A DNA stretch of 64,000 nt from Burkholderiales bacterium. GTDB lineage: Bacteria; Pseudomonadota; Gammaproteobacteria; Burkholderiales; Burkholderiaceae_A. The position numbers and the translations under genes are program-made. The notes beneath the pieces were generated by a model. It was not told the origin of the DNA. It made no database searches and worked only from the letters and a program-made list of their open reading frames with translations. Shown here piece after piece: positions 42,517 through 62,441 of the stretch (the first letter of the stretch is position 1; every line of letters begins with the position of its first letter). The DNA is taken from the NCBI GenBank assembly GCA_027486725.1, contig JAIXOP010000015.1:341950-405949 (forward strand). Direction: 5' to 3'.

Positions 42517-43350
42517 TTAGGAAGGTATCAGCCCGATGTCTCGTGTGGCGATGAATGATGGGTTTACGAAGTTTGCCTTTCCGTATCGCAATTGCCTTCC
42601 TTCGAGATCCACCACAACACCGCCTGCCCCCTCCAAAACTGCTTGAGCTGCTGCAGTGTCCCACTCACAGGTGGGTGCCAATCTCGGGTAGATATCGGCC
42701 TTTCCTTCGGCAATGCGACAGAACTTGAGCGAGCTGCCGGCTTGCACAAGGTCTACATCACCGAGACGGTCGATCAACGACTGCGTTCGCTCGTTTGAAT
42801 GGCTTCTACTCGAAAGAACCCGACATCGAGCGCCCACTTTTGGACCAGCCACCCGCATGGGAACGGGTTCAAGGTCACTTGACACAAGCACAGAGGCACT
42901 CTCAGATGTGAACGCACCAAGGCCAGCACCACCCCAGTAGAAGATTCCCGTGCCTGGCGCATAAACTAACCCGAGTACACTTCGCCCTCCATCGATCAAG
43001 GCTATGTTTACTGTGAATTCACCATTCCGTGCGATAAATTCCTTGGTGCCATCCAACGGATCGATGAGCCAAAATTTACCCTTCGGTTGGCGGTGCGCCA
43101 AGGACTCGGGATCCTCCTCAGAAACCACTGGAAAAGCCATAGGCAGCTCGCTCAGCCCCGACGTCAGAACCCGATGTGCGGCAAGGTCTGCATTTGTTAC
43201 TGGGCTGTCATCTGATTTGTGCTGGACCCATCTCGTCTTACTGTTGTATACGTCCATGATGGCGTCGCCAGCAGCTTTGGCGATTGTAATTAACCGCTCA
43301 AAGGGCGGGGCATGATGGGTATCCTGTCGATGCGGTTCTTCGTTTGACAT
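42517..43350 (-). CDS. cysQ: 3'(2'),5'-bisphosphate nucleotidase CysQ
   Basis: [16 protein letters not shown]...PVVSEED...[28 protein letters not shown]...[19 protein letters not shown]. Confidence 0.93.
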
Positions 43351-43979
43351 TTTTCTCAACTGACCCCAAGGAAATAAAGATTAAAACCTACCAAAACTCT
43401 TTCCCAACGCCAAACATCCATACACAATCATTTAGCATTAACCGGGAAGATCGTGAGCAGATGAATGGTTACCCTGGCAAAGTCATCTGGTTTACTGGGC
43501 TGTCAGGCTCCGGAAAGTCGTCCATCGCTAACGCATTGGAGAAACAGCTGTTCGCGCAAGGTAAGCGTACATACATTCTTGATGGGGACAACATTCGACA
43601 GGGGCTCAACAAGGATTTGGGGTTCTCTTCCTCGGATCGGGTCGAGAACATTCGGCGCATCGCGGAGGTGGCCAAAATGATGATGGACGCTGGCCTCATT
43701 GTTATGACCGCCTTTATTAGCCCGTTTCGCGCTGAACGCGAGATGGCAAGACAACTTATTGGTGCTGATCGCTTCCTTGAGGTTTATGTTGCTACTTCCC
43801 TTGAGATTTGCGAACAAAGAGACCCAAAAGGGTTGTACAAAAAAGCGCGAGATGGACAACTGCCTAATATGACTGGTCTTGATAGCCCCTACGAGGCGCC
43901 ACTGCATCCGCAAATGGTGGTAGGTAAGAACAGTGAGCCGCTAGAAGAGTCGATCCGCACACTCATTAGATTTCTTTAG
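43344..43979 (+). CDS. cysC: adenylylsulfate kinase CysC (start uncertain, may be downstream of 43344)
   Basis: [100 protein letters not shown]. Confidence 0.94.
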
Positions 43980-44172: not shown

Positions 44173-44233
44173 CTGCAGAACCTCCTTGTAAATAAAAAGT
44201 TCGATTTACTACCCCATCTAATCGACAACAAGT

Positions 44234-47020
44234 TCACGACCCCTTGGGCAGAACGTCGGGATTCCATGCGCCGAAAATCATAGATGCCAGCTGAGAAGTC
44301 AGTTTTTCACTACCGGCACCTGGGTAAACATGGTTAACATCGCTAAAGTCAGACGCCTGCATCTCAAAGGCTTCCCAATCTACAAAGTGTGCATCAAGGC
44401 TTGAAACTAGCGACTCATAAAGCGACAACCAGTTGTTCGCTGGCCCTTTTGACCCCGTTGACGAAAGGTAACGACGATCGATGGGATGAACAAATACAAT
44501 CACACGATCCGTTACTGCCTGAAGATGACGAAGCCCGGTGAGCCAAAAATCAACGGCAACTTGGTTCGTTTCAACTAAACCAAGGAACACCTGCCTTACC
44601 TCACTTTCACGCTTAAGCTTCCAAGCTGGCATCAACTTGCCGTTTCCTGTCGTTGAGTCTTGAACCATACGTTTCGCGATATTCGGCGCCCCCGCACGCG
44701 CTGAGATCCAGGAAAAGTCACCTCCCAATTCATCTGAAGGCAGCACATCACCGGTAAAATGCTGCGCTGTTAGCCGAATACTTCCGGCAGGTGGGATGAC
44801 TGATAAGAGCATCGGGTCAAGCTCATAGATTGCCATCGGAATTCTATGCTCAACCACCTCACACTGTCGACATACAAAATCGCAGACGTTGGCGATACTT
44901 TCGCAATCGATTGCCGGGAGTCCGATATTTACCGACTGCCAAGAAAAGCCATTTTTAGCAACAATCGAATCAAATGTTGGCGGCCGAAATCCTCGAAATA
45001 CACCGGACGATCCGATGACAGGGACTATCGGGGCGCTTGTGGTGTTTAAATATTCTGGGAAGCGCCGTATGAACTGAAGAACACGGTTTATTCTGGCAGT
45101 TATTTGCACTTGACTCGAAACCAGAGGACTTTGATGTTGGCCATTACTTGAATTATTGCTTAGATGATCCGGCAATCTACCTCCAGCGCGAATCAAAATG
45201 CTCGAGATCGATGAAAGGGAACATTCGGCAAGCGTTACGACAAGATCTTGATCTATCTTTACGGCGAATACTCTTTCAAGTTCGACGGTTAGAGCAACGA
45301 AACTCAAGGAATCCATTCCAGCCTCAAGCAAAGACTTACTTCGCAATATGCGACAAATGTCCAATTCGGGGCTAATTTGAACCACTGTCTTGAGCAACAA
45401 CTTTTCTACAGGGTCTACGCCATCAAACCCAGAGTTTTCTAGTTCTCTTTCAAAAGCCGACTGGACCAATGAGGCTATCGCTTTACGGTCCGACTTGCCA
45501 CTTACATTCGTGGGAAACTTAGGCAAACAAACTATGCGTGATGGAACCATATAGTCAGGCAATGCATCTCGCGTTGCGCTTAAAATTCCCGAGGTATTCA
45601 CATCATTGCTCTCTAGTGCAACAACTACACACGCGGCCGAAATTGCACCGGGGGGCCATGACAACGCCGCTACATTCACCAACGGAAAAGCGGAACGTAC
45701 AACGGCCTCTATTGCCCCAAGCTCTACCCGAAAGCCTCGAACTTTGACTTGATTATCTGCCCTCCCGAGAAACCGAACCTCCCCTAACTCGTCGCAAACA
45801 GCGAGGTCTCCTGTTCTGTAGAACACGTCATCGAATCCCGGCATTGTTACAAAACTTTGCGCAGTGCGCGGTTGGTTGTCAAGATATCCCTTGGCTACCT
45901 GTCGACCGCTTAGAAGCAACTCACCACATTCGCCGGGTCTACACCTTTCAAGTTCATTATTTACTACGGTCAACGTCATTCCTGGGAATGCTGAGCCAAT
46001 CGGTGCAAGATTATTCGGAGCCTCGGCATTACTACCAGGGGACAATTCATAACGTGCACATGCGATTGTTGCCTCAGTTGGACCATACCAGCTTTCAATG
46101 CGACTGTTTGGCGCGGCAGCCGCCCATCTATGCGCTAAATCCATGGGAAGCGCCTCACCGCAGAACATGCTCCAGCGCAGAGACGGAAATGCGCATTTTT
46201 CCAATTGCCCTTGGAGCTTCATTTGATATGCTAATGTAGGCACTGAGAACCAGCACGTAATTCTGTTTTTACGAATGTAGTCTGCTGGAGACGCTAAGTC
46301 GCTTGCACTAGGCACAACCAGATGTGCTCCATTCGTCCATGCAACCAGCAAATCGTGAACTGACAAATCAAAAGTTAGCTCAAAGGTTTGTGAAAGCCGG
46401 TCATCCGGTTTTACGTCCATTACTGTCTCAACTGCATCAAGATACCCAGTTAAATTCCCATGACTTATCGGCACTCCCTTTGGTTCACCTGTACTACCAG
46501 ACGTAAAAAGAATGTACGCACACTGATCGACAGAAATTTTCTTTGGCGGAAGATAGTCTCTGCTCATTGAAGGATACTCATCGTTATCGCAATCGACTTT
46601 TACTATCCGTAAGCGATTGCGTAAGCTGGCCTCCGTCGAAATAATCTCCTCAAGTTTTGCCATGGACTTGGCGTCACAAATAACCTCTGTTGCACCGGAC
46701 CGCTTAAGAACATCAAGAGTTCTATTCAAGGGGCGGTGAATATTGATGGGCACAAAGGTAGAACCACCTAGTAATGCCGAAAGGATACCGACGTACGACG
46801 AAAAACTACGATCAGCAATCACCGCCGTTACTGTGGGCTCAACTTCGGAAGGTCGTAATCTAAGACGCAAACTAATGCAGCACGCGGCAGCAAGCAATTC
46901 CTTGTAAGTCCAACACCCACCATTGACTGTTAACGCAGGATTATCAGCATAGTTACCCGCGCTGACCACAATACGTTCGCCTATGTTCCAAGTCTCTGGA
47001 GATTCAGATGCATACGACAT
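44234..47020 (-). CDS. adenylation domain - carrier protein - SGNH-like C-terminal domain fusion
   Basis: A3 LFTSGSTGEPKGVPISHGNL, A5 ESWYGPTEATIACARYE, A7 FYRTGDLA, A8 LGRADNQVKVRGFRVELGAIE, A10 NVSGKSDRKA, carrier LLEAGMDSLSFVALTVEL; C-terminal GSSGVFRGF...DFSDVNHVYPGAGSEKLTSQL. Confidence 0.85.
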   Translation of the reverse strand: MSYASESPETWNIGERIVVSAGNYADNPALTVNGGCWTYKELLAAACCISLRLRLRPSEVEPTVTAVIADRSFSSYVGILSALLGGSTFVPINIHRPLNRTLDVLKRSGATEVICDAKSMAKLEEIISTEASLRNRLRIVKVDCDNDEYPSMSRDYLPPKKISVDQCAYILFTSGSTGEPKGVPISHGNLTGYLDAVETVMDVKPDDRLSQTFELTFDLSVHDLLVAWTNGAHLVVPSASDLASPADYIRKNRITCWFSVPTLAYQMKLQGQLEKCAFPSLRWSMFCGEALPMDLAHRWAAAAPNSRIESWYGPTEATIACARYELSPGSNAEAPNNLAPIGSAFPGMTLTVVNNELERCRPGECGELLLSGRQVAKGYLDNQPRTAQSFVTMPGFDDVFYRTGDLAVCDELGEVRFLGRADNQVKVRGFRVELGAIEAVVRSAFPLVNVAALSWPPGAISAACVVVALESNDVNTSGILSATRDALPDYMVPSRIVCLPKFPTNVSGKSDRKAIASLVQSAFERELENSGFDGVDPVEKLLLKTVVQISPELDICRILRSKSLLEAGMDSLSFVALTVELERVFAVKIDQDLVVTLAECSLSSISSILIRAGGRLPDHLSNNSSNGQHQSPLVSSQVQITARINRVLQFIRRFPEYLNTTSAPIVPVIGSSGVFRGFRPPTFDSIVAKNGFSWQSVNIGLPAIDCESIANVCDFVCRQCEVVEHRIPMAIYELDPMLLSVIPPAGSIRLTAQHFTGDVLPSDELGGDFSWISARAGAPNIAKRMVQDSTTGNGKLMPAWKLKRESEVRQVFLGLVETNQVAVDFWLTGLRHLQAVTDRVIVFVHPIDRRYLSSTGSKGPANNWLSLYESLVSSLDAHFVDWEAFEMQASDFSDVNHVYPGAGSEKLTSQLASMIFGAWNPDVLPKGS

Positions 47021-47029
47021 TGTTTATCC

Positions 47030-48991
47030 TTAAACGTAACTGCGTTGCAGGGGGTGACCGAGAGCAGTGAGCAAAGTTGACGCACCATCAGTGTAGAAAG
47101 GTGCAGTCTCCCCGTTTACGGCACGCTCGATTGGCTCAAGGAACATTGGCCAAAATAGCTCGTATCGATTTGCCATTGATACATCAGGATAATCCAAATC
47201 GTAGCTGAATCGCGCCATTAGATCTTTAAGATAGATCTCCACCATTCTTACTTGCTCGAGGCTTAAACCCTCACGATACTTTAAAAAATTTTCGGTCATC
47301 AATGGCCTTACAAGATTCTCTCGTGGCCCGCCGGGAACCGCCAACCCTGAGGCATACTCGGTCTTATAAAAGTCAATCATTGCACGATCATAGGGCACAT
47401 CAAGGAATCCGCAAAGCGCTTCGAGTACAGACTCAGGGTTGCTAACGAGATCCTCATATCGCTGAAAGAAGACTCTCTCTTGACCCAGATGTGCGAGCGC
47501 CGCAAGGCCTCCAAGCTGGTCTTCACGCCAAACCTCCAGCGCCCGAAGGCTAGAGCCAAATTTGTTTCCAAATGCACCCCCTTTTCGATTTATTGCTGAG
47601 AGCAAGAAGTCGCGAGGATCTCTCACTTGGAATACAAACTTCGCACTAGGAAAGTGTTGGAGGATAAAGAACAATTGGCGGTGTATATTGTTCTCTTTGA
47701 TAAAGATAATCCGTTTTCCTGTTAAGCCGGACAACTCGCAAAATACCTGTCGCGCGAGTTCCCCGAACGATGGCGTCTCACGCTTCGATAGCCAATTCGA
47801 AAAGATACGCGCCGCCTCGGGGGACCGCATTCTTGTGAGTCGCTGACATACAGCATTCTCGAGTTCCGCCCATACTGCATTCCCACGCTCAGCACCAATT
47901 AGCGCATGCCAACTCAGACCAACATCCCGACACAAGTGGTATGGGGGGGGAGCGCCGATGTCAGGATGACTGTTAAGGATCGCGGTAATGAGGTTAGATC
48001 CGGAGCGCTCTGAACAGATAAGGAAAACGTACGAAGGCTCGGGATGAATTGCTGAAGGCAATACAGTCAATGAGGCAGGTTGCTGCTGGGTAGGCGAGCC
48101 ATATCCAAATTGATTAAGCATCGGGTGCACTATTTTCTCCACCCGTTCATGAAGTTTTTTATGCCCTTCATTACGCCACCCAGTTGACTCGACGATATTA
48201 ATTGACGTTCGCTTCTCAACGATCACAGTCTCATTTGCCGGTGGATAAAGATGTTGACCAGACCAAGATAGTTCTGCAAGAGACTCGCTTGCGAAATAAC
48301 TCACGTCGCTCCCGAGCCCAGCCCAGCCAAGAACCTGTCTAACAAGAGTCCGGGGCGAGGTGGAAAAATCCTCATACCGCAGGACAAACTTACGATTACC
48401 GAGAATATCGGACCATTGTTCTAACCTTGTTTGCCGAGCTAGCCAAGCTCTTGACTGCTGTAGAGCCATTTGCTCGTCACGTTTACGAAGCCAACTCGAC
48501 GCGACCGCACGCGGATCACGGATAAGATTTAAGACACGCAGTTCGACTTCAGGGAGTTGTGAGAATGCCAAACCAATTTCAGGCGACTTCGACGTGTCAA
48601 TTAAAGTATTTACATTCTTGATTGAAGCAATTGAACGCACGACATTGCGAATATCATGTAGGTAGTCTGCGTGGAGATTAGATAGCGCTGCAAGCGCAGT
48701 AGCATCGCCCCAGCTAGAGACCTTTGACGCACTCTGCACGAACGCCATCTGTCGCTCTTCTACTTTCTGTATCGCGGCATGAGGAGATACACCAAAAACT
48801 TCTCGTACGACATCGGACCATATCGGACAAGCCTGGAGGCAAGAGCCGCATGTGCAGGCTTCGTTGCGCGCATAGGCACCCCAGAAATCACGAAGCTGTC
48901 CCATATTAAAGGTGCCCGCCCCCTGGGTCAGCAATAGCGAAAGCAAAGTGCTTCCCGTACGGCCAGAGCCAGCAATTGTGACTATCTTCAT
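47030..48991 (-). CDS. tandem two-domain sulfotransferase
   Basis: Two PAPS-binding P-loop-like starts: VTIAGSGRTGSTLLSLLL and VFLICSERSGSNLITAIL; LNLIRDPRAVASSWLRKRDEQ and VFQVRDPRDFLLSAINRKG. Confidence 0.87.
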   Translation of the reverse strand: MKIVTIAGSGRTGSTLLSLLLTQGAGTFNMGQLRDFWGAYARNEACTCGSCLQACPIWSDVVREVFGVSPHAAIQKVEERQMAFVQSASKVSSWGDATALAALSNLHADYLHDIRNVVRSIASIKNVNTLIDTSKSPEIGLAFSQLPEVELRVLNLIRDPRAVASSWLRKRDEQMALQQSRAWLARQTRLEQWSDILGNRKFVLRYEDFSTSPRTLVRQVLGWAGLGSDVSYFASESLAELSWSGQHLYPPANETVIVEKRTSINIVESTGWRNEGHKKLHERVEKIVHPMLNQFGYGSPTQQQPASLTVLPSAIHPEPSYVFLICSERSGSNLITAILNSHPDIGAPPPYHLCRDVGLSWHALIGAERGNAVWAELENAVCQRLTRMRSPEAARIFSNWLSKRETPSFGELARQVFCELSGLTGKRIIFIKENNIHRQLFFILQHFPSAKFVFQVRDPRDFLLSAINRKGGAFGNKFGSSLRALEVWREDQLGGLAALAHLGQERVFFQRYEDLVSNPESVLEALCGFLDVPYDRAMIDFYKTEYASGLAVPGGPRENLVRPLMTENFLKYREGLSLEQVRMVEIYLKDLMARFSYDLDYPDVSMANRYELFWPMFLEPIERAVNGETAPFYTDGASTLLTALGHPLQRSYV

Positions 48992-49050: not shown

Positions 49051-49683
49051 TTAGTTATCGTAGTGAGGAAACCTCTCAAAATCTGCACTATACAAGGAAC
49101 GTACAATTGACCGGGATACGTTCGAAAGTTTTTCACTGGAAACTGCCGAACTTGGATTCGACTTGTTTATATGCGGTAGCACCACCTTCCCAAGCCCCGA
49201 AATTTCGGCAATCTTAGGCCATTTATTCTTAAGGTCTTCAAGATGATAGACTTCATCTAACCCAGTTGCCCCGCTTGGGTTCTGTGTATAGTCAACCTGA
49301 GGTCTAAAAAACCAATGGTTTGGGTGCGTTGGTTCCAGAATTTCTGTGAGGTCCTCCTCTACGAAAGCATTTAGCCCTTTCCGCTTGGCTATATCCAAAT
49401 AGCGGTAGAAGGAGATTAGTCGCTCGTAAGGGTTACGCACCACTGCGAACTTAAAGTAGTTTGTATATTGAACCCTGCTGAGGTAGCAGTTATCGATATA
49501 GTCGCGGAGGAGCAAATGCGCCAGCCTGGGTGGAGCGACCTCACCTCGCACACGCGGACGCAGCAGCAAAGGCGCACGGTTCTGCCAAGTGAGGTTTAGA
49601 GCTTTCAAAAAGGCATGCTCAATGCTTTGGCCGCCACACTTTGGGATATGGACAAAAAGGGTTTGGTGGTGATGCGAAATCAT
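49051..49683 (-). CDS. sulfotransferase, family 2-like
   Basis: LFVHIPKCGGQSIEHAFLKAL...FKFAVVRNPYERLISFYRYLD...FFRPQVDYTQNPSGATGLDEVYHLEDL. Confidence 0.88.
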   Translation of the reverse strand: MISHHHQTLFVHIPKCGGQSIEHAFLKALNLTWQNRAPLLLRPRVRGEVAPPRLAHLLLRDYIDNCYLSRVQYTNYFKFAVVRNPYERLISFYRYLDIAKRKGLNAFVEEDLTEILEPTHPNHWFFRPQVDYTQNPSGATGLDEVYHLEDLKNKWPKIAEISGLGKVVLPHINKSNPSSAVSSEKLSNVSRSIVRSLYSADFERFPHYDN

Positions 49684-51582
49684 GAGCAAACTCTATTTAA
49701 CGTATAACAAAAAAAGTAAGTCCTAATTGACGCCGAGCCTCTTTTTTAATCAGACCAAATATTATTGCCATGAACTTCCTACACTTCACGACCGTTTGGA
49801 TGAGCAGTCGCTTACTGTGCGCCAAGCGTAATGGAATTTCGGTATCCACACAATCTTTAAGCCAGAATAGATCTTTTGTTTTAGATTTATCCAGCGAATA
49901 CCGTATGGAGGCCCTTGCACAAATGTCCTCTTTTGGTTGCTATTGTGATATTAGCATTACTAGTGTTTATTTATTCAAGCTTTGGTGCGATTAAAACGGA
50001 TCGCAGTTCTTCCGCGAGGGTTTGAGATTCGCACTTGCACTTGGTGGGTTGCACATCAAGGTCATAATCAAGCGATGATTATTGAATTTCTCATTTAGGC
50101 TTTCGTTGACTCTCATTTTCCAAGGCGTTTCGGCTTTGAACGGGAGATTGAGTTGTCTTTTTCCAGCCGCCCATTGCATCAAGCATATCTGGCGAGCTTT
50201 ATTCCATTGACACCTTTTAAAATCATTGCACTGCTACGCTAGTTGATAAACTATTAATACACTTGGGTTTGACCGGTAGATCTTATCTAGCCACCCACAT
50301 TATGGTACAGAGTTGATTTGATGAGCGCATCAATCATCGTCGATCACTGGAACTTGTTGCCGTTGTTGCAGCCATCGAACATAAAGCCTTCTCTTCATAC
50401 TCGTTTGGACACCTGTGATACCCTAGGTTTACCCAATTGTTGCGGTTGCGCTTTGCAGGGCTCTTGAGAAGCGTCTGCCTCCCCGAAACCGTTCAAATTA
50501 GGGCAGTTCGTTCTTTACCCGTTTCCCTGCCTTCCCATCGCAGGCCCCCCCCCTATTTACACCATCCCATAGGTAATCTGTTGAGCTATTGCGCGTTGCT
50601 TCAGTCATCGATCTCTCGGTCGGCGGCATCCGGTGTGCATATATACCACTTCTATCCAACGTGTTTCATCATCCTTTGGGTTATTTTTTGGGTAATTATC
50701 GGCCAACTGCATGTCGGAGTTTCTTTTAACTCAGTTGCACGCTTTACATTTTTTTCATCAGTTCGTTAATGCCCTTAGTGCGAAGAGCTTCTCCGGCCGC
50801 AATCTTCTTTATACGGCCGCATTCCTTCTCGGGACGTGTCAAAACTCGCTTCATCATCTCCGCGCGTATCGCAGAACCTCTCTCGCGGCCCATAGGTCGA
50901 GGGCCCACCGATACCCTGTGTCCTCGCCATCTACGCTACATAAATACGGTCGGCTTTCTGCGCGGCCTGTTCTATCGGCTCATCGAGAAAGCTCACGTAG
51001 TTCAACATAGCGTTCCAGGTGTTAAGAGCCATTGTTTTAAAATGATCTTTATTTTAAGAGCCCAGAATATATCCACTATTGAGTCGCATCACTGAGATTT
51101 ATCTCATCGGGCTTGACGCGTGGTTGCCGGAACTGCAATCAACGGCTTACGTTTTGCTTCAGCTTGAATTAGCCAAAGAGCGGCGTAGTGGGGATTAGCA
51201 TTCTAAGGTATATAATCTTAGAAAAAGAATCAGAGACCACCGTGAGCATCCGAGCCACCAGATCCGCCACTTTTTTCGGCCGTTGTTGATGGAGTTGGGC
51301 CTCCCAATAATTGCACCATCAGAGTAGTGAAGTTATATATCTAAGCTAGACTTTTACTTTTACAGACCTATTATTTGAGCATATTCATCTTAACAAACCT
51401 TTCAATCCTTACGATTCGGTTGGGATGCCCTTGCTCAGACACCGCGGCCACCGTATAGTTGGTTATAATCTTACTTCTATAGCGTAGTGTTGCCGTTGCG
51501 CGAACTCGCTCGTGGCGGCCGGGAGCTCCAGATTTGGAGTACGACACATCTTGGCAGCAATCGTCCTAAGGTTGTAGTTATA

Positions 51583-52230
51583 ATGAAATTTCAAAGCGAT
51601 TGCTCCAACACTCAAGCCGCAAGGTTAATCCTTGTCTGCGGTCCATGGAGCAGCGGCACCTCAGCTGTAGCGGGCGCCCTATGCAAGTTGGGGTGTGCTG
51701 CGGTTGGCCCTTTTTTTAAGGTCAACGACCCCATGACCCCCGAAACTTTTGAGACAGAGGCTTTGAGAAGTCTTCTCATTGGACTTCGATCTGAACTTGA
51801 CTTTAGCCCCCGTGTTTCCGACGAAGTGGCGGATGAAAGGATTGGAAAGTTTTCCTCCGAGCTTCTTTCAAAGGCGGGGAGGCAGGCCGTGGAACGGCCA
51901 ATTCTGCTCAAGCACGCCTTACTAGCTTTTTATATCCACCACTTTTCAAAGTACTTTGATGTCTCGGTGGTTGGCGTTATGCGGTCGTTAACCAAGATTG
52001 AGTCAACGCGGGTTCGAAGAGGGTGGCCGCCGAGTTTCGGCCGTCTTGGAGCAATAAAGCTTTATTCGCAGCTATTCAGTGTAGCGGTACAGCACGACTT
52101 CCCACTGGCATTGATTCGCTTTTCGGAAGTTCAATCCGATCCCCAGTGCATTGAGAACCTCGGTCGACATCTTGGTCTTGAGCCGACTCCCGATGAGATC
52201 GCGGCAGCGCTGGCGTTTCTCTCTCGATAA
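51583..52230 (+). CDS. sulfotransferase-like P-loop protein
   Basis: ARLILVCGPWSSGTSAVAGALCKLG...VSVVGVMRSLTKIESTRVRRGWPPSFG...LALIRFSEVQSDPQCIENLGRHLGL. Confidence 0.65.
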   Translation: MKFQSDCSNTQAARLILVCGPWSSGTSAVAGALCKLGCAAVGPFFKVNDPMTPETFETEALRSLLIGLRSELDFSPRVSDEVADERIGKFSSELLSKAGRQAVERPILLKHALLAFYIHHFSKYFDVSVVGVMRSLTKIESTRVRRGWPPSFGRLGAIKLYSQLFSVAVQHDFPLALIRFSEVQSDPQCIENLGRHLGLEPTPDEIAAALAFLSR

Positions 52231-52247: not shown

Positions 52248-53948
52248 ATGACCGCAGAGTTCCTCCACAGCCCTGAACAAATCGATGTTTTAGCCCGTGC
52301 CCGCAAGCTTCTACTCACAGACCCGAAGGCAGCCGAGTCGCTTCTTAGTGGCTATCTGAAAGAGGGCGGAGGCTCCCCGGAGGCTTACTTCCTTCTAACC
52401 AACGTCTATGATCACATGGGTCAGCGCAAATCTGCACTGAAGGCGACCCACGATATGCTTGCTACTCTTGATCGGCTCGGGGGATCTGTGCACGATGTCC
52501 AAGGATTCGTCGACCGCTGGCGCGTTGCGGCCTGCAACAATCTTTGTCGATTTGGTGAGGAGTTGAAGGCTTTTTCTATTGCCCAGCAAGCATACGATCG
52601 CCTTGGGAGACCTCTTGGGTTGGCTCCCGCTTATTTATTTGTCGCTCAAGCGGTGGGGCACTTCTCTGAGATTGCGCGGCTTGCGGAGGCACTCGGCAAG
52701 GGTTACGAGGGGGATGTGCATCTCAATCTGAACGAGACCCCAAGATCAAGCACAATTTGGTGTGGAAACCCCGAGATCAATGTTCGAGTTGCGAAGGTCT
52801 GGAGGCAGTCAAACTTGCCCCCAATGGCTAACAACGTAGCCTTCGCTGAGAGGGTATCAGCGAAGATTCGTGTGGGTTACCTTTCCGGCGACTTCCGAAA
52901 CCATCCAACTTCACGACTAGTTAAAGGGCTCCTGAAGAACCACGACAGGTCAAGATTTGAAGTTTTTCTTTTCTGCAGCGGTTGGGATGATGGCTCGAAT
53001 CTCCGTAAGGAGGTTGTTTCATATGTCGACGCAGTTCATTCGGTTGCCGAGTTGAGCGATCTTGAGGCATCGCAGTTGATCCGCAGGTTGAATATCGACA
53101 TCCTAGTTGAGCTCAATGGGCCAACCCGTGCACACCGCCTTGGCATATTAGCTCATCGAGTAGCCCCTGTTCAGATTGGCTACCTTGGCTTTCCCGGAAG
53201 CTATGGTGGAGATTTGGTGGATTACATCATCGCTGACAAAAATACAATCCCACCGCAGACGCGGGAGTTCTACCCCGAGCGCATTATCTATGTCAGCGGA
53301 ACTTATCAGGTCAACGACTACGAGCCGCTTCCAGAGTCTGGTGTCGCTGACACACAACTTGGCTTGCCTGACCGAGGCGATGGACAACTTTTGGGTGTCT
53401 TCAATCGGTCCAACAAAATCACGTTGGAAGCTTGGAATGCTTGGTGTTCGATTTTGCGACAGGTACCAAGTGCCACCCTGTGTATCTTAGATCCCGGGAA
53501 AGCTGTTGCACCGTCGCTCAGAGCGCACGCTAAAAACCAAAAGCTTCGCGCTGGTCAGATTCGTTTGTTGCCCGGGTTGACGCACTCTGAGCATTTGATG
53601 CGATTAACGCGGTTTGATCTGATGTTGGACACTTGGCCCTATGGTGGACACACCACTACCGCAGATGCCCTTTGGGCGGGCGTTCCGGTCGTTGCGATGG
53701 AGTGCGATTCCTTCGCGGGGCGCGTGAGTAGTGGCCTTCTCAAGGCAGGAGGGCTTGGTGCCCTGGTAGCCACTGACCCGAAGCAATATGTGGGCATCGC
53801 CACTCGCCTCTTACTTGAACCAGAAGCGCTTCAGAGAGCAAAGAAATGGGTCAGCGAAAAGACGCGGCGCTCCATCGTCTTCGACTCGCTGACACGCACA
53901 CGAGAAATCGAGGAGGCATATCTGCGTTGCCTCGAGTCAACATCCTAA
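52248..53948 (+). CDS. GT41 / OGT-like (SPINDLY) glycosyltransferase
   Basis: IRVGYLSGDFRNHPTSRLVKGLLKNHDRSRFEVFLF...APVQIGYLGFPGSYGGDLVDYIIADKNTIPP...FNRSNKITLEAWNAWCSILRQVPSATL...LDTWPYGGHTTTADALWAGVPVVAMEC. Confidence 0.9.
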   Translation: MTAEFLHSPEQIDVLARARKLLLTDPKAAESLLSGYLKEGGGSPEAYFLLTNVYDHMGQRKSALKATHDMLATLDRLGGSVHDVQGFVDRWRVAACNNLCRFGEELKAFSIAQQAYDRLGRPLGLAPAYLFVAQAVGHFSEIARLAEALGKGYEGDVHLNLNETPRSSTIWCGNPEINVRVAKVWRQSNLPPMANNVAFAERVSAKIRVGYLSGDFRNHPTSRLVKGLLKNHDRSRFEVFLFCSGWDDGSNLRKEVVSYVDAVHSVAELSDLEASQLIRRLNIDILVELNGPTRAHRLGILAHRVAPVQIGYLGFPGSYGGDLVDYIIADKNTIPPQTREFYPERIIYVSGTYQVNDYEPLPESGVADTQLGLPDRGDGQLLGVFNRSNKITLEAWNAWCSILRQVPSATLCILDPGKAVAPSLRAHAKNQKLRAGQIRLLPGLTHSEHLMRLTRFDLMLDTWPYGGHTTTADALWAGVPVVAMECDSFAGRVSSGLLKAGGLGALVATDPKQYVGIATRLLLEPEALQRAKKWVSEKTRRSIVFDSLTRTREIEEAYLRCLESTS

Positions 53949-53967: not shown

Positions 53968-55287
53968 TTACTTGGCGCTAGCCGTCTTCGTTGGCACCAT
54001 CAACATATCCTCCACCGCCCTCAGTGCAGCCTCATTGGAAACTCCACTCACCAGCTGGACTTGAAGATAAGCGGAAGCAAGGGTGGCAAGACTGTTGACG
54101 TACTCGCGGCGGGCATCGAATAAGGTGAGGATGGCGGACAACACATCGTTGGAGGTAACGATTCCCGCATCAAATCCTTTTAGGTTCGCCTGAACGGCGC
54201 GCTCTGCTGAAGCCACCACTTTCTTTCGAATCTGTACCTCAGAAACGCCTGCACGAAGTTGCGCAGCAGCCTGTTGCGCCTCCAGCCCCACTTGAGTTGT
54301 GACCACCCTCAGCTGGTCTTCCGCCCGATCTGCGGCAAAGATTGCCTTGCGCTGAAGAGCAATGTTGGATGGCGAAACACCGACCGGAACGCTTAGGTTC
54401 AATCCGCTGAAGGTGTCAGACTTTTCACCTTCAATTTTTGTCTGTTGAATGACGTAATCGACTTGTGGGAGGTAGTTCGCCATCACCTTGCGCTGCTCAA
54501 GCTCCGCAAGTCGCACCTGTGCGTTGGCGGCGATGACCTTGGGAGAGTTATCCTTGGCCAAGGCAGCGACCTCGGCCAATGTCGGCAACCTTGGCGCTGC
54601 AAGGTCGGTTGCAAATCGCAGAAGTTCGGGCTGGGGAAGAAGGCCCGTCATCGCTTGATACTGGCGCTCAAAGGTTGCGTAGCTCAGAAGGAGCTGCTGG
54701 CGATTCGCCTTTGCCTGGTCGGATCGCACTTGGGTGCTAGAAACCTCGGTGACCGTCCCCTGGTTGAGTGCCAATCGGCGCTTCGCTCGTACCAATTGCG
54801 CGTCGAGGGTCCTGATTTGCTCTTCATTGTTTTCAAGATTCTCGCGCACCTTGATGAGCTCAAGCACGAGGGCGAGGACTCGGCTAGCAAGCGTCTGCTC
54901 GGCCAATAGAAAGTTGGCCTTCGCGACAATCTCAAGAGAATCAGCCGACTGGAGAGTCGCAAACTTCTTGAGGTCGAGGATAGGCTGGCTGATTTGGAAC
55001 GTCGTCCGTACTCGGTTTTCAATCGGCGACTGCCCGTAATTCGCTGCAAAGGTTGGCAGGTATGCGAGTTGCGCCGCCAAGACATCCGCATTGGCGATGC
55101 GCTGATCGGATTTTGATACGATGAACTCCGGATCGAAATCGTAGGCCTTGCGGAAAATCGAAGAGAGTCCGATGGATTTTTCATCGGCACTAATTGCGAC
55201 GCTTTGGGCAAACGCTGAGACAGATGCTGACATCAGTCCAGCAGAAAACAGAAGAGAAAGCGTGGTGTTGATGGCGATGGGTTTCAT
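53968..55287 (-). CDS. TolC-family outer membrane protein (T1SS)
   Basis: Signal peptide; LSSIFRKAYDFDPEFIVSKSDQRIANADVLAAQLAYLPTFAANYG...QISQPILDLKKFATLQSADSLEIVAKANF. Confidence 0.9.
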   Translation of the reverse strand: MKPIAINTTLSLLFSAGLMSASVSAFAQSVAISADEKSIGLSSIFRKAYDFDPEFIVSKSDQRIANADVLAAQLAYLPTFAANYGQSPIENRVRTTFQISQPILDLKKFATLQSADSLEIVAKANFLLAEQTLASRVLALVLELIKVRENLENNEEQIRTLDAQLVRAKRRLALNQGTVTEVSSTQVRSDQAKANRQQLLLSYATFERQYQAMTGLLPQPELLRFATDLAAPRLPTLAEVAALAKDNSPKVIAANAQVRLAELEQRKVMANYLPQVDYVIQQTKIEGEKSDTFSGLNLSVPVGVSPSNIALQRKAIFAADRAEDQLRVVTTQVGLEAQQAAAQLRAGVSEVQIRKKVVASAERAVQANLKGFDAGIVTSNDVLSAILTLFDARREYVNSLATLASAYLQVQLVSGVSNEAALRAVEDMLMVPTKTASAK

Positions 55288-55324: not shown

Positions 55325-56743
55325 CTACTGGAGGAAGGACCGTGCAAAACTATCGAAAACAGGCTTGAAGAGGTAAGACATGAAGCTGCGCTCTCCGGCT
55401 TTGAGAACGACCTCCAATGGCATCCCTGGACTCAACGGTGCACCGCTGAGTTGCTTGACTGCATCTGGGGTGAGTTCAATGCGTCCGATGTAGAACTCTC
55501 CCTTTTGATTGTCTTGATTCAACTCGGTTAGTTTGTCACTGGCCACCTTGTCTGCGCCGATCAGGACGAGCGTTCCTTCAACCACTGGCGTCAGTCCACT
55601 GGGCAGCGATACGAAGCGGAGTCTTGCCTCCATTCCAACCTGCGCCTTGGCGGCTTCCAGCGTTGGGATTCGGACCTCAACGATCAAGGTTTCATTCGTT
55701 GGCACAACCTCCAGGATCGGCTGCGACGCATTCACGACACCGCCCACAGTATTGACCTTCAAGCCTGTCACCACCCCCGCCACCGGTGCCTTAATATTGT
55801 TCAGGCTTGCGTCGAATGCCAAGGCCTCGACCTTTTGCTCTAAGGCATCGCGGGTTTTCTGTGTCTCTGCCAATTCCGCGTCGATCTCTGAGAGCCTACC
55901 GTTGGTGAGCTTCGATAGTTCGGCGTCTGCCACTGCCTTATTTCTGAGGATACCGCTCGCCTGCGCTTGGGACATAAAGCCCTCCTTGGCGAGTTGTGCC
56001 GCCTCGGCAGCCTCGATCGTGAGGGTCTGAACCTGAATTCGTTGAGACGCTAGCCGGTTTGCGTAATCGGCGCGGCGAGTTTGAAACAGCTTATCTTGGA
56101 TATCGAGGGCCTCGGCAACTGCGGGCTGAAATTTCGCCTGTTCAATCAGCTCCGGTGGAAAGCTGATCTGCACCTTCCCATCCCTTTCGGCCCGAAGTCT
56201 TGATTCCGTGGCCTGCAATGACACCAGTTGCAGCTGAGCGCTTGTTAGATTCGCATCGGCATCGAGTGGATTGATGCGAATCAGAACCTCATCACGCTTC
56301 ACCTCCTGGCCTTCCTTGACGAGGATTTCTGTCACCACGCCGCCGGTCGGGTGCTGCACCAGTTTCCTGTTGCCCGCAACCGCCAGGTTTCCTTGCACAA
56401 AGACACCCTGATCCAAAGGTGCGAAGAAAGCCCAAATCAAAAACAGGACACCCAATCCCAGTGTCAGCTTGCTTGCCAATAACTTCCCCGGGGGCAGCAG
56501 CAACTCTGCTGGGTCCAGTCCCGCTCGCGCCTTGAGGCGCTCAGGGTCGTAGGGATTCGATTCGTCGATTTTCTTCGTGAGCCATGCATCTGCACGCTTG
56601 TATGCTGCCTTTGACTTTAACCAAGCGAAGAGTGCAAGCCCGACGCTCTGGGTGGCTATAGTCCTCAGATGGGTAGAGAGCCCGGCAAATCGGCCCTTCA
56701 TCAATCCCACGGTCCGCTTCCAAGTGAAGGGTTGTTGCTTCAT
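55325..56743 (-). CDS. HlyD/PrtE-family T1SS periplasmic adaptor
   Basis: DQGVFVQGNLAVAGNRKLVQHPTGGVVTEILVKEGQEVKRDEVLIRINPLDADA...IKAPVAGVVTGLKVNTVGGVV. Confidence 0.93.
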   Translation of the reverse strand: MKQQPFTWKRTVGLMKGRFAGLSTHLRTIATQSVGLALFAWLKSKAAYKRADAWLTKKIDESNPYDPERLKARAGLDPAELLLPPGKLLASKLTLGLGVLFLIWAFFAPLDQGVFVQGNLAVAGNRKLVQHPTGGVVTEILVKEGQEVKRDEVLIRINPLDADANLTSAQLQLVSLQATESRLRAERDGKVQISFPPELIEQAKFQPAVAEALDIQDKLFQTRRADYANRLASQRIQVQTLTIEAAEAAQLAKEGFMSQAQASGILRNKAVADAELSKLTNGRLSEIDAELAETQKTRDALEQKVEALAFDASLNNIKAPVAGVVTGLKVNTVGGVVNASQPILEVVPTNETLIVEVRIPTLEAAKAQVGMEARLRFVSLPSGLTPVVEGTLVLIGADKVASDKLTELNQDNQKGEFYIGRIELTPDAVKQLSGAPLSPGMPLEVVLKAGERSFMSYLFKPVFDSFARSFLQ

Positions 56744-58497
56744 GTCGGAGTCCTCGGCGATGCGGACGTTGGCAGCTGCTGGAGGACCTCTTCTCGCTCA
56801 GACTCTGAGAGTGATTCTTCATGCCCAGCGTTGCCGGCCTTCAGTGCGCGTATCCGGTCGATGACCGTCTGGGTTGGCCCAAACATGACAGATTTTCCTT
56901 GCTTGATGATCAAGACTTGGTCGGCCGCGCCGATAACCCGTGGCCTGTGGGTCGTGATTACGACGGTGGCGCCTGCCTGTCGAAGCCGATGAATGGTCGC
57001 CACCAAGTCGGCCTCTCCCTTTTCATCGAGGTTGGCATTGGGCTCGTCCATGACGATGAACTTTGGTTCGCCATACAGCGCGCGGGCGATGGCCAGTCGC
57101 TGGCGCTGCCCTCCTGAAAGGCCAAACTTCGCAGCATCGCCCAGCGGCGTGTCGTAGCCCTGCGGGAAGCGCAAGATCAGTTCGTGAATACCTGCCGCCT
57201 GCGCAGCACGGATCACCTTCTCGGAATCCGGCTCGCCGAGTCGAGCGATATTCTCAGCAACCGTGCCTTCAAAAAACACAACCTCCTGGGACACATATCC
57301 AAGATGTCGACCTAAGGCGACATGCGGCCATGTCGAAACCTCCACCCCATCCAAACGCACTGAGCCGCTGGACGGCTTGTAGAGGCCCAAGAGAAGTTTG
57401 GCCAAAGTGCTTTTGCCTGCGCCAGAAACCCCTGCGATCGCCAAGCAACTGCCTGGCTCGAGACTGAAGCTCACCCCGAGAATCAGTTCCTTGTCGCTGT
57501 TGGGTGGCCCTCCCGCAACATTGTCGACCAGCAGCCGCCCTTTGGGCGGAGGCAAAGACATTGACTCTGGTGCAGGAGGGTAGTCCGCCAGAAGCTTCTG
57601 AATGCGGTCTCCCGACTGGCGCGCCTTAACGATTGCCGCCCAATTGGTCAGCAAAACATTGATGGGGGCAGCCGTTTTTGCAATCAACATCGCGGCAATA
57701 AATACGAACGACGGGTCCACAGTGCCGGAGATGGCCAGAACCGCGACCAATGCCTTGGCCAGATCGGCCATGGAGCGATTGATGAAGCCCGAGACGCCCT
57801 GAGTGAGACCCTGGGCTTCTTTGGCCGCGAGGCCAAGCCCCAAGGAGTTGCGATGGCTCTGATACCAGCGCGCACGGGCAGCAGGCTGCATTCCGAGGGT
57901 TGATGTGACCTCGGCGAATCGACCGAAAATGCCCGCCGATTGTGCTGCCGCCTGGGCACTGTCATTGGCCGCCCTGAGGATGGGTGTTGCGGACCTTTGA
58001 CTGAGGTAGGCGGAGAAAGCCAAGGCCGTCAACATGATTGCCATGAATCCAGCCAGCCAAGGATGAATGAAGCCAGCGAATGCGATAAAGATCACCGCGA
58101 ACGGCAGAGACAGCGCAGCCACTGCGCACGGGCCCGAGACGAAAGACCGCAACTCCGACAGATCCGACATGATCTGGTGTGGGTTGATTGCTTGTTTTTG
58201 CAATTGCGCACGGAATACTGCGTCAAACACATCCGGCGAGTGATCCCAATCCAAGCGCAGGGCCACGCGAGCTAGGATTTGAGACCGGACCCATTCCAGA
58301 GTACCCCACAGAATGTAGGCACCCACCACAAATAGAGTGAGGGAAATGAGTGTGGCATAGCTGCCTGTGGGGATGGCGCGCTGAAAGAGGCTCAACATGT
58401 ACACCATGGGCACCAGCGCCAACAACTCTACAAGAAATGTGAGAAACAGCAGTGCCCGAATGGGCTTGCTTAACTGATGAACTAAATGATTGAGCAT
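56740..58497 (-). CDS. PrtD-family T1SS permease/ATPase
   Basis: Walker A AGVSGAGKSTLAKLLLGLYKPSSGSVRLDG, signature FGLSGGQRQRLAIARALYGEPKFIVMDEPNANLD; ATGA overlap with adaptor. Confidence 0.94.
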   Translation of the reverse strand: MLNHLVHQLSKPIRALLFLTFLVELLALVPMVYMLSLFQRAIPTGSYATLISLTLFVVGAYILWGTLEWVRSQILARVALRLDWDHSPDVFDAVFRAQLQKQAINPHQIMSDLSELRSFVSGPCAVAALSLPFAVIFIAFAGFIHPWLAGFMAIMLTALAFSAYLSQRSATPILRAANDSAQAAAQSAGIFGRFAEVTSTLGMQPAARARWYQSHRNSLGLGLAAKEAQGLTQGVSGFINRSMADLAKALVAVLAISGTVDPSFVFIAAMLIAKTAAPINVLLTNWAAIVKARQSGDRIQKLLADYPPAPESMSLPPPKGRLLVDNVAGGPPNSDKELILGVSFSLEPGSCLAIAGVSGAGKSTLAKLLLGLYKPSSGSVRLDGVEVSTWPHVALGRHLGYVSQEVVFFEGTVAENIARLGEPDSEKVIRAAQAAGIHELILRFPQGYDTPLGDAAKFGLSGGQRQRLAIARALYGEPKFIVMDEPNANLDEKGEADLVATIHRLRQAGATVVITTHRPRVIGAADQVLIIKQGKSVMFGPTQTVIDRIRALKAGNAGHEESLSESEREEVLQQLPTSASPRTPT

Positions 58498-58646: not shown

Positions 58647-61600
58647 TTAGGCAGGGAGGTCTGGATTGTCAAACACGACCACCTGGAAGGCTCCACTACC
58701 GAGACTCAGAGCGTAGGCCTTGTCCTGCCCAACACCGACCATAAAGGTGTCTTGGCTGCCTCCTTGCCCCATAGTGAACGTTCCAACCAGTTCCTCGTAA
58801 CCACTGCCGTCGTCCATCACTGCAGCCATATCTAGCGAGCCGAACCCAAGAATCACGTCAAAGTCACCGCTCAGGCTCGCCACATCCCCGGTTGCGGGGT
58901 TGAACGTCGCAATCCCGATTTCGCCAATCTCGTTAATCTGATCTACACCGTCCGATTCGCTGATGTTGTAAAGATCCGCACCTCGACCTAGATCAAGAGT
59001 AGACGTCTGGTCACTGTTGGTGAAGAGTTGCAGAACTTGGGCCTCGCTGTCGCCAGTGATGGAAATTTGCCCCTCAACGCCTTCAACCAGCCGGGAATCG
59101 TCATTAAAAATAACCTCCGTCGCATCAGTCAAATTCAAGTCGACTTGAGCAGAGGTCGCAAATAGGTTCAGGAACATATCAACACTCGAATCCCCGTCAC
59201 CCCCACCATTGATGGTCACCGAAACGCTCTCGGCAGCTTCCCTCTGACTCCGAACGACATCAAGAGAAGTCGATTCATCAGCAAACAACTCGACGCTACC
59301 AGAACCAACATCGGTGAGCGTGACCTCCGAAATCAATGAATTGAGGCTGATATCTGCGGAAGCGGCACCATCAACTTCAACCACGGCCATTTCAGAGGCC
59401 ATCGTTATCGAGGACTCGATTGTGCCGACTCCATTGAAGTTCGCCAAGCCAGCCTCTGTGCGCTCACCGCTGACATTCGTGATGTCAACAGAGCCGTCCA
59501 CATCCGCCACATGAATGTTCACGATGGCGGATCGCACAGAACTCACGTCGACGCGATTCAAACCAGTGGCCGTGATATTCACCGCATCCGCGGCGAAGTA
59601 GGTTGTTTCCGCTGTAGGGACACCCTCCGAAAGTTCAAACGATGTCAGCGAGCCGCCATCAACACCGTCCACAACCAAGTCACCCACGAGATTGGCATCG
59701 ATGTTCAGGCTTTCTGTGTTTCCAAACCTAAAATCAACATCATCAACATTGGTCACATCAATATCGACCATATCTGATGCCAAGTACTCGTAAGATACCG
59801 GACGTCCTTCAGCTTGGTCATCAAATACAAACTTATAACCGCCGTCGACAGACGATATAACAACATCGTCCCCATCGGAATATCCAATAGAAAGGTTGAG
59901 GATTGATGAATTGGAGATATTCAAGTCATTGCCGACCGTGAGGTCAAAGGCCGCAGACTCTGCTGCAATCGCTTCGGAGGATGTGAACTCTGAGTCAGAC
60001 TTTTCAAGCATCCCGCCGTTCACTTGAACCCGGACATCGTCAAAATCAACAGCAACGATATCGAGCTTATTGATCGAGCTGCTGGACGGACCGGTACCAA
60101 CCGTAAGGTCTGAATTCACCAGATCGACAACCAACTCCTCGGCTGCGAGAGTTTGGAGCTCGAATGCCTCGGCTAGTCGCTCAGACTCCCCCTCTCGCTT
60201 GGAGACGGAACCACCGTTTACATCCAACGAAAGCCCATAGGTGCCCTCCAGGGACAAATCAATCGCCTTGGCCGCTACGCTGACATCAAATGATCCGTTA
60301 CCGGAGATATTCAAAGTCACGGAGTCGGCGGCTTTGACGGTCTCATTCAATGTAAACATCTGGTCTTCACAGCGGCTGAAGGGATCCAAACCTTCCTGAC
60401 TAGACTGACGTCCACCGTCGATCGAAACGAAAGTGTCACTGGAATCGTTAGAGCCGGTCGGATCATCAGCAACGGTCAAAGCTACGACGTTGGCTGAGAT
60501 ATTAATTTCAGCCGAGGCACTGTCCGCCAAGCGGATGTCCACAGTCGATGCGGCGATGGTTGTCGACTCGCTCACAAACAATAGCCCCGAATCGGTCGAG
60601 GTTTCGGTGGAGTTAGAATTCTCGCCCCCGTTGACATTAATGTCTACAGAGAAGGAATCGACAATTTCCAGGTCAACTGATTCGCTGCTAACAAAAATAT
60701 CGGCAGAAGAGGCATCCTCAACCTGAATTGCGACATTCTCCGCTGCGACGATCGTCGTCAATTCGAACGATTCTCCCTCAATGAGGGAACTCTGTTGGCT
60801 GAAGCCACCCACGGCTACTATCTCGAGGCCTTCATCGGCACCAGTGACGTTGATGTCGGCCGTCTTGGCAGCGACGGCGATCGTGCTGTCCTGGCCCAGG
60901 AGATCGCTCGCCTCAACACTCGCTTGGCTTGCACCGGCAATGCTGATGTCGCTGCTGGAGCCACCATTGTCACCCCGAATCATCTCGGCGACTTGGACGA
61001 GTGTTTCGAGAGCAGCGTCAACACTACGAACGCCCTCGAGTTCCACATCGCTCACCACGATCACACCGGATTGTTCTGCCATCGAGACTTTCGCGTCGTT
61101 GGCAAAGATCGCAGCGACGGCGTTGGTCAAATTAACCTCAGCGAACGATGTTGCGTTGATTGAGAACGGCTCGCCTTCCCCAGGCTCCGAGATTTCAGAA
61201 GAAACGACAAAAACTCGTGGGGTATTGGAGGGCAGCCCGACATCCAAATCTGCCAGTACGACTTCGTTGGCCTCAAGCAGTATCGTTGGGACCTGCAGTG
61301 GCGTCGGAGGGTCAGTGATTACCGGGGGGGGGGTTACGTCGACCGAATGCGAGATGTCGACCGAATGCGAGATGTCGACCGACCAGTTAATCGTCGGTTC
61401 CGGCATAGAAAGTGCTACTAGCGATGGGCCCCCCTCTTCGGCGTAGCCATACACCAGCACATCCGGCGTGTCGCTATCCGCACCGCGGTTCGGCGCTTCA
61501 ACCGAGTAGATCGACTGGGGGCTGGCCTCGAACGCCGACTCCACAGTAAGAATGTTGTCATCGGCTTGCGTCAAGGCAAATTGGCGGGGATTGCCATCCT

Positions 61601-62441
61601 CGTCGTTGCCGGTGAAGGTGGCTGTGCCGTTACGTACGATATCCTCACCAATCTCGACATCCAGACCGATGATTTCAAGCTCGCCAAGCGTCCCATCAAC
61701 CTCGACCCGGAACACCGCCAGCGGGTCGGGAGCGGAAGTAACAATAACCTCCAGGTTTCTGATGGGGCTCTCTGCTCTTGCGGGCTCCACCACGGGGGGC
61801 TCCACCACGGGGGGCTCCACCACGGGGGGCTCCACCACGGGCGGCGTAACCGCAGAGCCGTTGGAAGACGAGCCCCCTCCGGAAGCGGCAACAGCAACTA
61901 CCGTCGCAGCACCGGCCACCGCACCCACCGTGGCGAGCGTGCTCAGCCCTGTGGTCTCAGCAACGGCCAAGACACCAGCAACGGGAAGAGAAATAGACTC
62001 CGCTGAAGCCAGCGCGGGCGCTGAACCAGCACCCTCTTGCGCACCGATATCGGCGATCAGCTCTGCCTCTGCCTGGGTCTCTGTGGCGGCCTGGGCTGCA
62101 GTGTCTTGGCGCTCAGCGACAATGCCGGCCTCCTGTGCAGCAGCGCGAATCGAAACCACCTCTGCCGAGCTCGCCGCCTGAACCGAAATGCCTTCGCTGA
62201 CGGGTGCTGCGGCCGAGTTTGCTGGCGTTGCGTCGATACCCTCGGCATCCATGTTGTTGAGCACAGCGTCGACAGCATTAGCCAAAGCTGCTTCGCCGCT
62301 GACGGCATCGGCACCAGACGATTGCAGCGACTCAGTCACAGTGACAGCGAGGGCCGCCAGCGCGGCAGTGGAGAGCCCGCTGCTGCGGCGGTTGGAGCGG
62401 ATGGTGGCAATCACTGCCTGCTGAAGATCGCGAAGATTCAT
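58647..62441 (-). CDS. 1264-aa acidic repetitive putative type I-secreted surface protein (S-layer/adhesin-like beta-solenoid)
   Basis: No Sec signal; N-terminal LSTLATVGAVAGAATVVAVAASGGGSSS + (PPVVE)n linker; repeating beta-strand-rich units e.g. ADSVTLNISGNGSFDVSVAAKAIDLSLEGTYGLSLDVNGG; C-terminal LDLGRGADLYNISESDGVDQINEIG...GSGAFQVVVFDNPDLPA; directly upstream of T1SS genes. Confidence 0.75.
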   Translation of the reverse strand: MNLRDLQQAVIATIRSNRRSSGLSTAALAALAVTVTESLQSSGADAVSGEAALANAVDAVLNNMDAEGIDATPANSAAAPVSEGISVQAASSAEVVSIRAAAQEAGIVAERQDTAAQAATETQAEAELIADIGAQEGAGSAPALASAESISLPVAGVLAVAETTGLSTLATVGAVAGAATVVAVAASGGGSSSNGSAVTPPVVEPPVVEPPVVEPPVVEPARAESPIRNLEVIVTSAPDPLAVFRVEVDGTLGELEIIGLDVEIGEDIVRNGTATFTGNDEDGNPRQFALTQADDNILTVESAFEASPQSIYSVEAPNRGADSDTPDVLVYGYAEEGGPSLVALSMPEPTINWSVDISHSVDISHSVDVTPPPVITDPPTPLQVPTILLEANEVVLADLDVGLPSNTPRVFVVSSEISEPGEGEPFSINATSFAEVNLTNAVAAIFANDAKVSMAEQSGVIVVSDVELEGVRSVDAALETLVQVAEMIRGDNGGSSSDISIAGASQASVEASDLLGQDSTIAVAAKTADINVTGADEGLEIVAVGGFSQQSSLIEGESFELTTIVAAENVAIQVEDASSADIFVSSESVDLEIVDSFSVDINVNGGENSNSTETSTDSGLLFVSESTTIAASTVDIRLADSASAEINISANVVALTVADDPTGSNDSSDTFVSIDGGRQSSQEGLDPFSRCEDQMFTLNETVKAADSVTLNISGNGSFDVSVAAKAIDLSLEGTYGLSLDVNGGSVSKREGESERLAEAFELQTLAAEELVVDLVNSDLTVGTGPSSSSINKLDIVAVDFDDVRVQVNGGMLEKSDSEFTSSEAIAAESAAFDLTVGNDLNISNSSILNLSIGYSDGDDVVISSVDGGYKFVFDDQAEGRPVSYEYLASDMVDIDVTNVDDVDFRFGNTESLNIDANLVGDLVVDGVDGGSLTSFELSEGVPTAETTYFAADAVNITATGLNRVDVSSVRSAIVNIHVADVDGSVDITNVSGERTEAGLANFNGVGTIESSITMASEMAVVEVDGAASADISLNSLISEVTLTDVGSGSVELFADESTSLDVVRSQREAAESVSVTINGGGDGDSSVDMFLNLFATSAQVDLNLTDATEVIFNDDSRLVEGVEGQISITGDSEAQVLQLFTNSDQTSTLDLGRGADLYNISESDGVDQINEIGEIGIATFNPATGDVASLSGDFDVILGFGSLDMAAVMDDGSGYEELVGTFTMGQGGSQDTFMVGVGQDKAYALSLGSGAFQVVVFDNPDLPA
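61324..61333. repeat. 10-nt G/C homopolymer inside the secreted-protein CDS
   Basis: accGGGGGGGGGGttacg; coding strand C10 encodes PPP in DVTPPPVITD. Confidence 0.97.
61783..61842. repeat. 4 x 15-bp tandem repeat encoding PPVVE
   Basis: ggctccaccacgggg repeated four times (last copy one mismatch). Confidence 0.95.

Follow-up and report, generated by a model that had tools for sequence, protein, structure and literature searches.

Teichoic acids are D-alanylated by the Dlt system, in which DltA, DltC and DltD provide adenylation, carrier and SGNH activities. Physical linkage of a PAPS-dependent sulfotransferase to a carrier protein is known from two polyketide synthases (PKSs), CurM of curacin A and the olefin synthase Ols, whose sulfotransferase domains act on carrier-bound hydroxyacyl groups. 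PAPS is produced by CysC and consumed by sulfotransferases, and the PAP left behind is cleared by CysQ. GT41 glycosyltransferases, among them OGT and HMW1C, modify proteins in the cytoplasm. In PrtD-type type I secretion systems (T1SS), the genes for the ABC protein, the HlyD adaptor and the outer-membrane channel (OEP) form an operon downstream of the substrate gene; T1SS substrates have a C-terminal signal that is not cleaved, and many carry RTX repeats. Genes that recall each of these systems are found in one block of the window, by which we mean the whole 64,000-nucleotide stretch of DNA analysed here. A preliminary description of the window had joined them into a single surface-protein system. 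The better-founded finding is a recurring module in which sulfotransferases are linked to a protein with amino-acid adenylation (A), carrier (PCP) and SGNH domains.

The inserted block and its genes

The block of about 21.7 kb between the PPK2 and M20 amidohydrolase genes is an insertion, which includes an M48 peptidase gene. In five of ten congeneric genomes M20 follows PPK2 within tens of bases, and the block has thus been inserted between the two in the host. M20 has its near end at 64150 there, just past the window edge. The island genes are absent from the PPK2-downstream stretches of four congeners, and all ten congeners lack GT41 and 1264-aa surface proteins. Base composition departs strongly from that of the host, a MAG that is 83.7% complete and probably belongs to the order Burkholderiales, within Gammaproteobacteria in the GTDB sense: GC drops from about 65% to 47-58% at the island, and GC3 is 0.44-0.66 against 0.83-0.84 for PPK2 and pepN. 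The two end stretches compared hold no island-end repeats of 10 nt or longer. Just outside the island, between an AAA/DUF4143 ATPase gene and PPK2, is a near-perfect (92%) 24-nt palindrome (41293-41340), and a HigA-like antitoxin-like sequence can be made out by eye between M48 and M20, across the window end (L034, about 722-1030). The features of the island are as follows.

42517..43359, minus strand: CysQ, 3'(2'),5'-bisphosphate nucleotidase (TIGR01331, 269 bits, above cut-off)
43344..43979, plus strand: CysC, APS kinase (PF01583/TIGR00455)
44234..47020, minus strand: A-PCP-SGNH protein, 928 aa, with amino-acid adenylation, carrier and C-terminal SGNH domains (PF00501, PF00550, TIGR01733 above cut-off)
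47030..48991, minus strand: fused sulfotransferases, 653 aa; ST-A, residues 1-300, and ST-B, residues ~319-653 (PF13469, Sulfotransfer_3, two stretches)
49051..49689, minus strand: Sulfotransfer_2-family protein, 212 aa (PF03567, 57 bits)
49690..51486, no strand: 1.8-kb stretch with no recognisable gene, short ORFs only, GC 0.45, separating the island halves
51487..52230, plus strand: 247-aa protein with a P-loop-like N-terminus (matched by no Pfam, PHROG or relevant NCBIfam family)
52248..53948, plus strand: GT41/OGT-like glycosyltransferase (PF13844, Glyco_transf_41, 211 bits)
53968..55287, minus strand: T1SS outer-membrane channel, OEP/TolC type (PF02321, two stretches)
55325..56743, minus strand: T1SS HlyD-family adaptor (TIGR01843, above cut-off)
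56740..58497, minus strand: T1SS PrtD-type permease/ATPase (TIGR01842, 518 bits, above cut-off)
58647..62441, minus strand: putative T1SS substrate, 1264 aa (from operon position and composition)
62602..63375, plus strand: M48 peptidase (PF01435), right part of the inserted block

These models bear out what the preliminary description had read from the letters for CysQ, CysC, the 928-aa fusion (AMP-binding and PP-binding domains), the two-domain sulfotransferase, the GT41 enzyme and a complete T1SS.

The stretch between the halves matches no Rfam family. The genes from CysQ through Sulfotransfer_2 have a GC3 of 0.44-0.53, and those beyond, as far as the exporter, of 0.53-0.66. Whether the island consists of two functional units, one at 42517-49689 and the other at 51487-62441, we regard as about evenly balanced. 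Alternatively, the island could have been put together by chance from horizontally acquired genes, as a mosaic whose functions have partly decayed and whose units do not interact; the GC differences within it, the gene-free gap, the unassigned ORFs and the origin in a MAG are consistent with such a history. Every large ORF is intact, however, and the PAPS motifs, the carrier serine and the SGNH and GT41 catalytic positions have all been kept, which makes a chance mosaic very improbable.

The sulfotransferase-linked A-PCP-SGNH module

The PAPS genes at the left end have relatives within the genus. CysQ is 65% identical to the CysQ of a PAPS cassette in one congener (G004), and CysC shares 77% identity with the CysC portion of the CysNC protein there; CysC was not found in the other nine of the ten congeners examined. 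The TTG listed as the start of CysC overlaps the divergent CysQ start, and the true start probably lies farther downstream. The cassette itself, CysD-CysNC-CysQ (contig C7 of G004; L122, 6888-14108), is accompanied by a Sulfotransfer_3 protein and an arylsulfotransferase (ASST), and nucleotide-sugar epimerase genes adjoin it. Linkage of CysC and CysQ to the A-PCP-SGNH module is seen in the window only.

Thirteen loci elsewhere, in Alpha- and Gammaproteobacteria, encode homologues of the A-PCP-SGNH protein; two of these loci (L086 and L094) are nearly identical, and eight aligned homologues are 34-43% identical over their length. The carrier domain (PF00550) was detected in nine of nine members scanned, its phosphopantetheine serine is invariant in 12 members, and it resembles, among others, the D-alanyl carrier protein. 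The specificity positions of the A domain, placed on what we take to be the GrsA numbering, read DLHFLCWIAK in seven of 12 members; three differ by a single change, the code being DLHFMCWIAK in the window and DLHFLCWISK in two members, and larger departures are confined to the Woeseiaceae and gammaproteobacterial members. Because the pocket is near-invariant, a single amino-acid substrate is likely for the whole family, and the large pocket residues suggest that it is small.

No Pfam model matches the last domain. Its GSS and NH motifs are kept in all 12 aligned members, and the AlphaFold model of the carrier and SGNH part (pLDDT 79) was compared with the PDB. The closest folds are chains of DltD (E 4e-5, TM about 0.4, long rmsd, with a model that also contained the carrier), followed closely by other SGNH esterases and the O-acetyltransferase PatB. 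Since TM-scores are about 0.4, the assignment to the SGNH superfamily, made in the preliminary description, is firm, and the likeness to DltD is probable.

ST-A and ST-B each retain intact 5' and 3' PAPS-binding motifs, which are near-invariant (GSGRTGST...RDPRAVASSW and SERSGSNL...RDPRDFLLS). The closest solved structures to ST-B and ST-A are the carrier-acting domains of CurM and Ols (4.5e-24 and 2.5e-10). Tyrosylprotein sulfotransferases match too, and the likeness to CurM and Ols may simply reflect which sulfotransferases of this broad family have solved structures.

Two further sulfotransferase-like proteins had been named in the preliminary description. The 212-aa protein stands, as a member of Sulfotransfer_2; its gene is just upstream of the module on the same strand, and in another genome (G1218, L129) a Sulfotransfer_2 gene overlaps the module end. 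The 247-aa protein was rejected as a sulfotransferase, with no backing from Pfam, a relevant NCBIfam family or profile-profile comparison (HHalign), the last being a weak, single-sequence test in which the unrelated kinase CysC, used as negative control, scored equally low. Its sole hint is a P-loop-like GPWSSGTSAVAG motif, from which a sulfotransferase would be a guess. Motifs of the type GDTKTGSTALQ/GHHKVGSTSIQ occur in conserved proteins of roseobacter exopolysaccharide clusters (L086, 7855-8883 and 21186-23538; L127, 7377-9656). These look like further sulfotransferases; two such proteins of L127 and one of L086 match no Pfam family.

The module was traced in several ways. A tblastn search of plasmids with the carrier-SGNH part gave two roseobacter plasmids, on each of which a sulfotransferase gene adjoins the A-PCP-SGNH gene. 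Further members came from a genome scan and from two profile searches: they belong to Woeseiaceae, Rhodovulum, Silicimonas, three further roseobacter-type genomes, one gammaproteobacterial MAG and, within a single family, four genomes. The module is rare: it occurs in two of 398 genomes of a phylum sample, one being the host genome, and in four of 298 genomes of the family of the other. ST-A is adjacent to or near the A-PCP-SGNH gene at 11 of the 13 loci (one of the remaining two is cut by a contig end), and ST-B is present at eight. One 110-kb contig (NVUP01000014.1) has the module at both of its ends (L091 and L092), and is perhaps an unresolved circular plasmid.

The arrangement of the three genes varies. 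ST-A and ST-B are separate genes flanking the A-PCP-SGNH gene at three loci (L091, L093, L095); they are fused to each other in the window; and in three genomes (G980, G1129, G1218) ST-B is fused to the A-PCP-SGNH protein as its N-terminal portion. The two kinds of fusion sit on different branches of the tree. The ST-B and A-PCP-SGNH genes overlap by 4 nt at L089, L091 and L093. Linkage, fusions and overlaps are the usual signs of a shared function, and suggest that the three proteins work together. A search of the open-licence PMC literature found no description of a sulfotransferase-linked A-PCP-SGNH module.

The surroundings of the module bear on what it modifies. Six of the 13 loci lie within polysaccharide clusters with Wza-type export genes, and the plasmid exopolysaccharide clusters of Phaeobacter sp. 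G2 and Leisingera thetidis carry the A-PCP-SGNH and sulfotransferase pair. No polysaccharide genes were seen at the other seven, several of which are close to contig ends. Because of these seven loci, and because no Wza-class exporter was found in the host genome, the acceptor of the module may not be a polysaccharide. Polysaccharide export by a Wza-class protein of the host was considered and rejected, none having been found in a genome that is 84% complete.

These observations are partly in keeping with a different product, a small sulfated metabolite derived from an amino acid. ST-B would sulfate a carrier-bound aminoacyl group and the SGNH domain would serve as thioesterase, comparable to the sulfotransferase-thioesterase pair of CurM, with no polymer as acceptor. 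The nearest solved sulfotransferases, which act on carriers, the fusion of ST-B to the A-carrier protein in three genomes, the seven loci without polysaccharide genes and the near-invariant pocket are all consistent with such a metabolite. The six loci in polysaccharide clusters argue against it, as does the best fold match, which is a transferase, DltD, and not an alpha/beta-hydrolase thioesterase. A small metabolite is a possibility to be kept in mind, although we think it the less probable product.

The type I secretion operon and the GT41 gene

The exporter genes and the gene of the 1264-aa protein plausibly form an operon. Apart from the island HlyD, none was found in the available host genome. 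The 1264-aa protein is acidic (pI 4.05), has one cysteine and contains 12.0% Ser, 6.5% Thr and 4.8% Asn. It had been described as a Ser/Thr/Asn-rich protein without RTX repeats; it is Ser-rich and holds no GGxGxD motif, but the Asn content does not bear out that part of the description. Its AlphaFold model consists mostly of beta strands and is of low confidence (pLDDT 40.6). No homologues were found in 60 relatives, the GTDB genome collection (pattern scan), plasmids, the PDB or PHROGs. N-x-S/T sequons are enriched: the protein has 18, whereas shuffling of residues 226-1264 gives 9.8 +/- 2.7, an excess that may stem simply from beta-helical sequence patterns.

The nearest solved structure to the GT41 enzyme is XcOGT (2jlb, 7e-55), and alignment to it shows that the catalytic His and Lys positions of OGT are kept. 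The model of the asparagine-specific enzyme NGT matches at E 0.003 only, and the GT41 enzyme resembles OGT. A second GT41 protein, with two GT41 domains and TPRs, is encoded in the host genome (L036, contig C3 of G000, 8945-13258), between an FG-GAP/RTX protein (50-3019) and an RTX protein (13359-15404) and together with other glycosyltransferases. GT41 thus stands beside a secreted repeat protein twice in this genome.

In the single system of the preliminary description, the cytosolic GT41 enzyme would glycosylate the 1264-aa protein, the sulfotransferases would sulfate the glycan, the carrier protein would acylate or aminoacylate, and the T1SS would export the product. Several observations speak for this system: the whole gene set is contained in one inserted block, GT41 is twice found beside secreted repeat proteins, sequons are enriched in the 1264-aa protein, no clear membrane segments were seen in the modifying enzymes, and no Wza-type exporter was found that would supply another acceptor. 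The lone HlyD of the genome is in keeping with a link between T1SS and GT41. At its other loci, however, the module has no GT41, surface protein, CysC or CysQ beside it, as far as the sequence examined extends, and one locus shares its plasmid with a T1SS. The halves of the island differ in GC3 and are split by the gene-free gap, and the GT41 enzyme resembles OGT rather than the asparagine-specific NGT.

Co-occurrence had been named in the preliminary description as the way to check the proposal. No homologue of the 1264-aa protein was detected through which to follow it. In the searchable sample, none of 20 loci with related T1SS (ABC identity 33-40%) has a GT41 or sulfotransferase gene nearby, and none of 20 loci with GT41 relatives has a T1SS; the relatives compared are distant (about 28-40% identity), so that for this pair the comparison is a weak one. 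By this check the proposal fails in the sample; the T1SS, GT41 and sulfation genes are neighbours within one island, which is not conserved linkage. We consider it unlikely that they form one system.

Proposed roles and comparison with known systems

In the reading that we prefer, the left half encodes a Dlt-like enzyme that carries out aminoacylation as one protein and is coupled to sulfation, and the right half is a T1SS operon with a GT41 gene; we give this reading an even chance. CysC would supply PAPS and CysQ would remove PAP. The A domain would activate one conserved amino acid, probably a small one, and load it onto the fused carrier. ST-A and ST-B would sulfate either the group held on the carrier or the acceptor of that group. 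The SGNH domain, in a role like that of DltD, would pass the aminoacyl group to a glycan hydroxyl or release it. We infer the amino acid, the order of these steps and the acceptor from the domains and their surroundings. The A-PCP-SGNH protein would thus unite the equivalents of DltA, DltC and DltD as a single soluble protein and do without DltB, and in several roseobacters the module would serve an exopolysaccharide cluster. In the right half, the T1SS operon would have a private non-RTX substrate, the 1264-aa protein, which the product of the convergent GT41 gene may glycosylate prior to export.

A bolder extension would join the halves: the single-protein enzyme and two carrier-acting sulfotransferases would attach an amino acid to a surface glycan, either sulfated itself or together with sulfate, the glycan here being that of the T1SS-secreted protein. 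This extension is speculative and unlikely. Modification of a surface glycan by a sulfated amino acid would be of a kind not known so far. The preferred reading, if true, would mean that a compact, soluble form of Dlt chemistry exists in Gram-negative bacteria and is tied to sulfation, and roseobacter exopolysaccharides would be expected to bear an aminoacyl or sulfo-aminoacyl substituent that is new. With the two types of fusion protein, it can be tested directly in vitro whether sulfotransferases act on amino acids bound to a carrier.

Among the known systems, PrtD-type type I secretion shares with the window the ABC, HlyD and OEP genes, arranged as an operon that follows the gene of a linked, putative substrate, and differs in that this substrate has neither RTX repeats nor detectable relatives. 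The GT41 enzyme has the domain and catalytic positions of OGT and XcOGT, and is matched by the model for the HMW1C/NGT type only at the value given above. The roseobacter plasmid exopolysaccharide clusters share the A-PCP-SGNH and sulfotransferase pair, which in the window has no adjoining genes of polysaccharide synthesis or export. In CurM and Ols a PAPS sulfotransferase is likewise physically linked to a carrier protein; they combine it with a PKS and an alpha/beta-hydrolase thioesterase, whereas in the window it is combined with a domain for amino-acid adenylation and one that resembles DltD.

The Dlt system appears to share adenylation, carrier and SGNH/DltD-like activities with the window protein, whose FCGE motif has a cysteine, as in DltA. 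The DltA model TIGR01734 scores 237 bits on the 928-aa protein against a cut-off of 559.85, so that it fails as a DltA equivalog, and no DltB (MBOAT) gene turned up among those of the island that family models could identify. The module is therefore called Dlt-like in its logic, and not a Dlt system. It differs from Dlt in having all three activities in one protein that shows no clear membrane segment, in its linkage to sulfotransferases and in its Gram-negative hosts.
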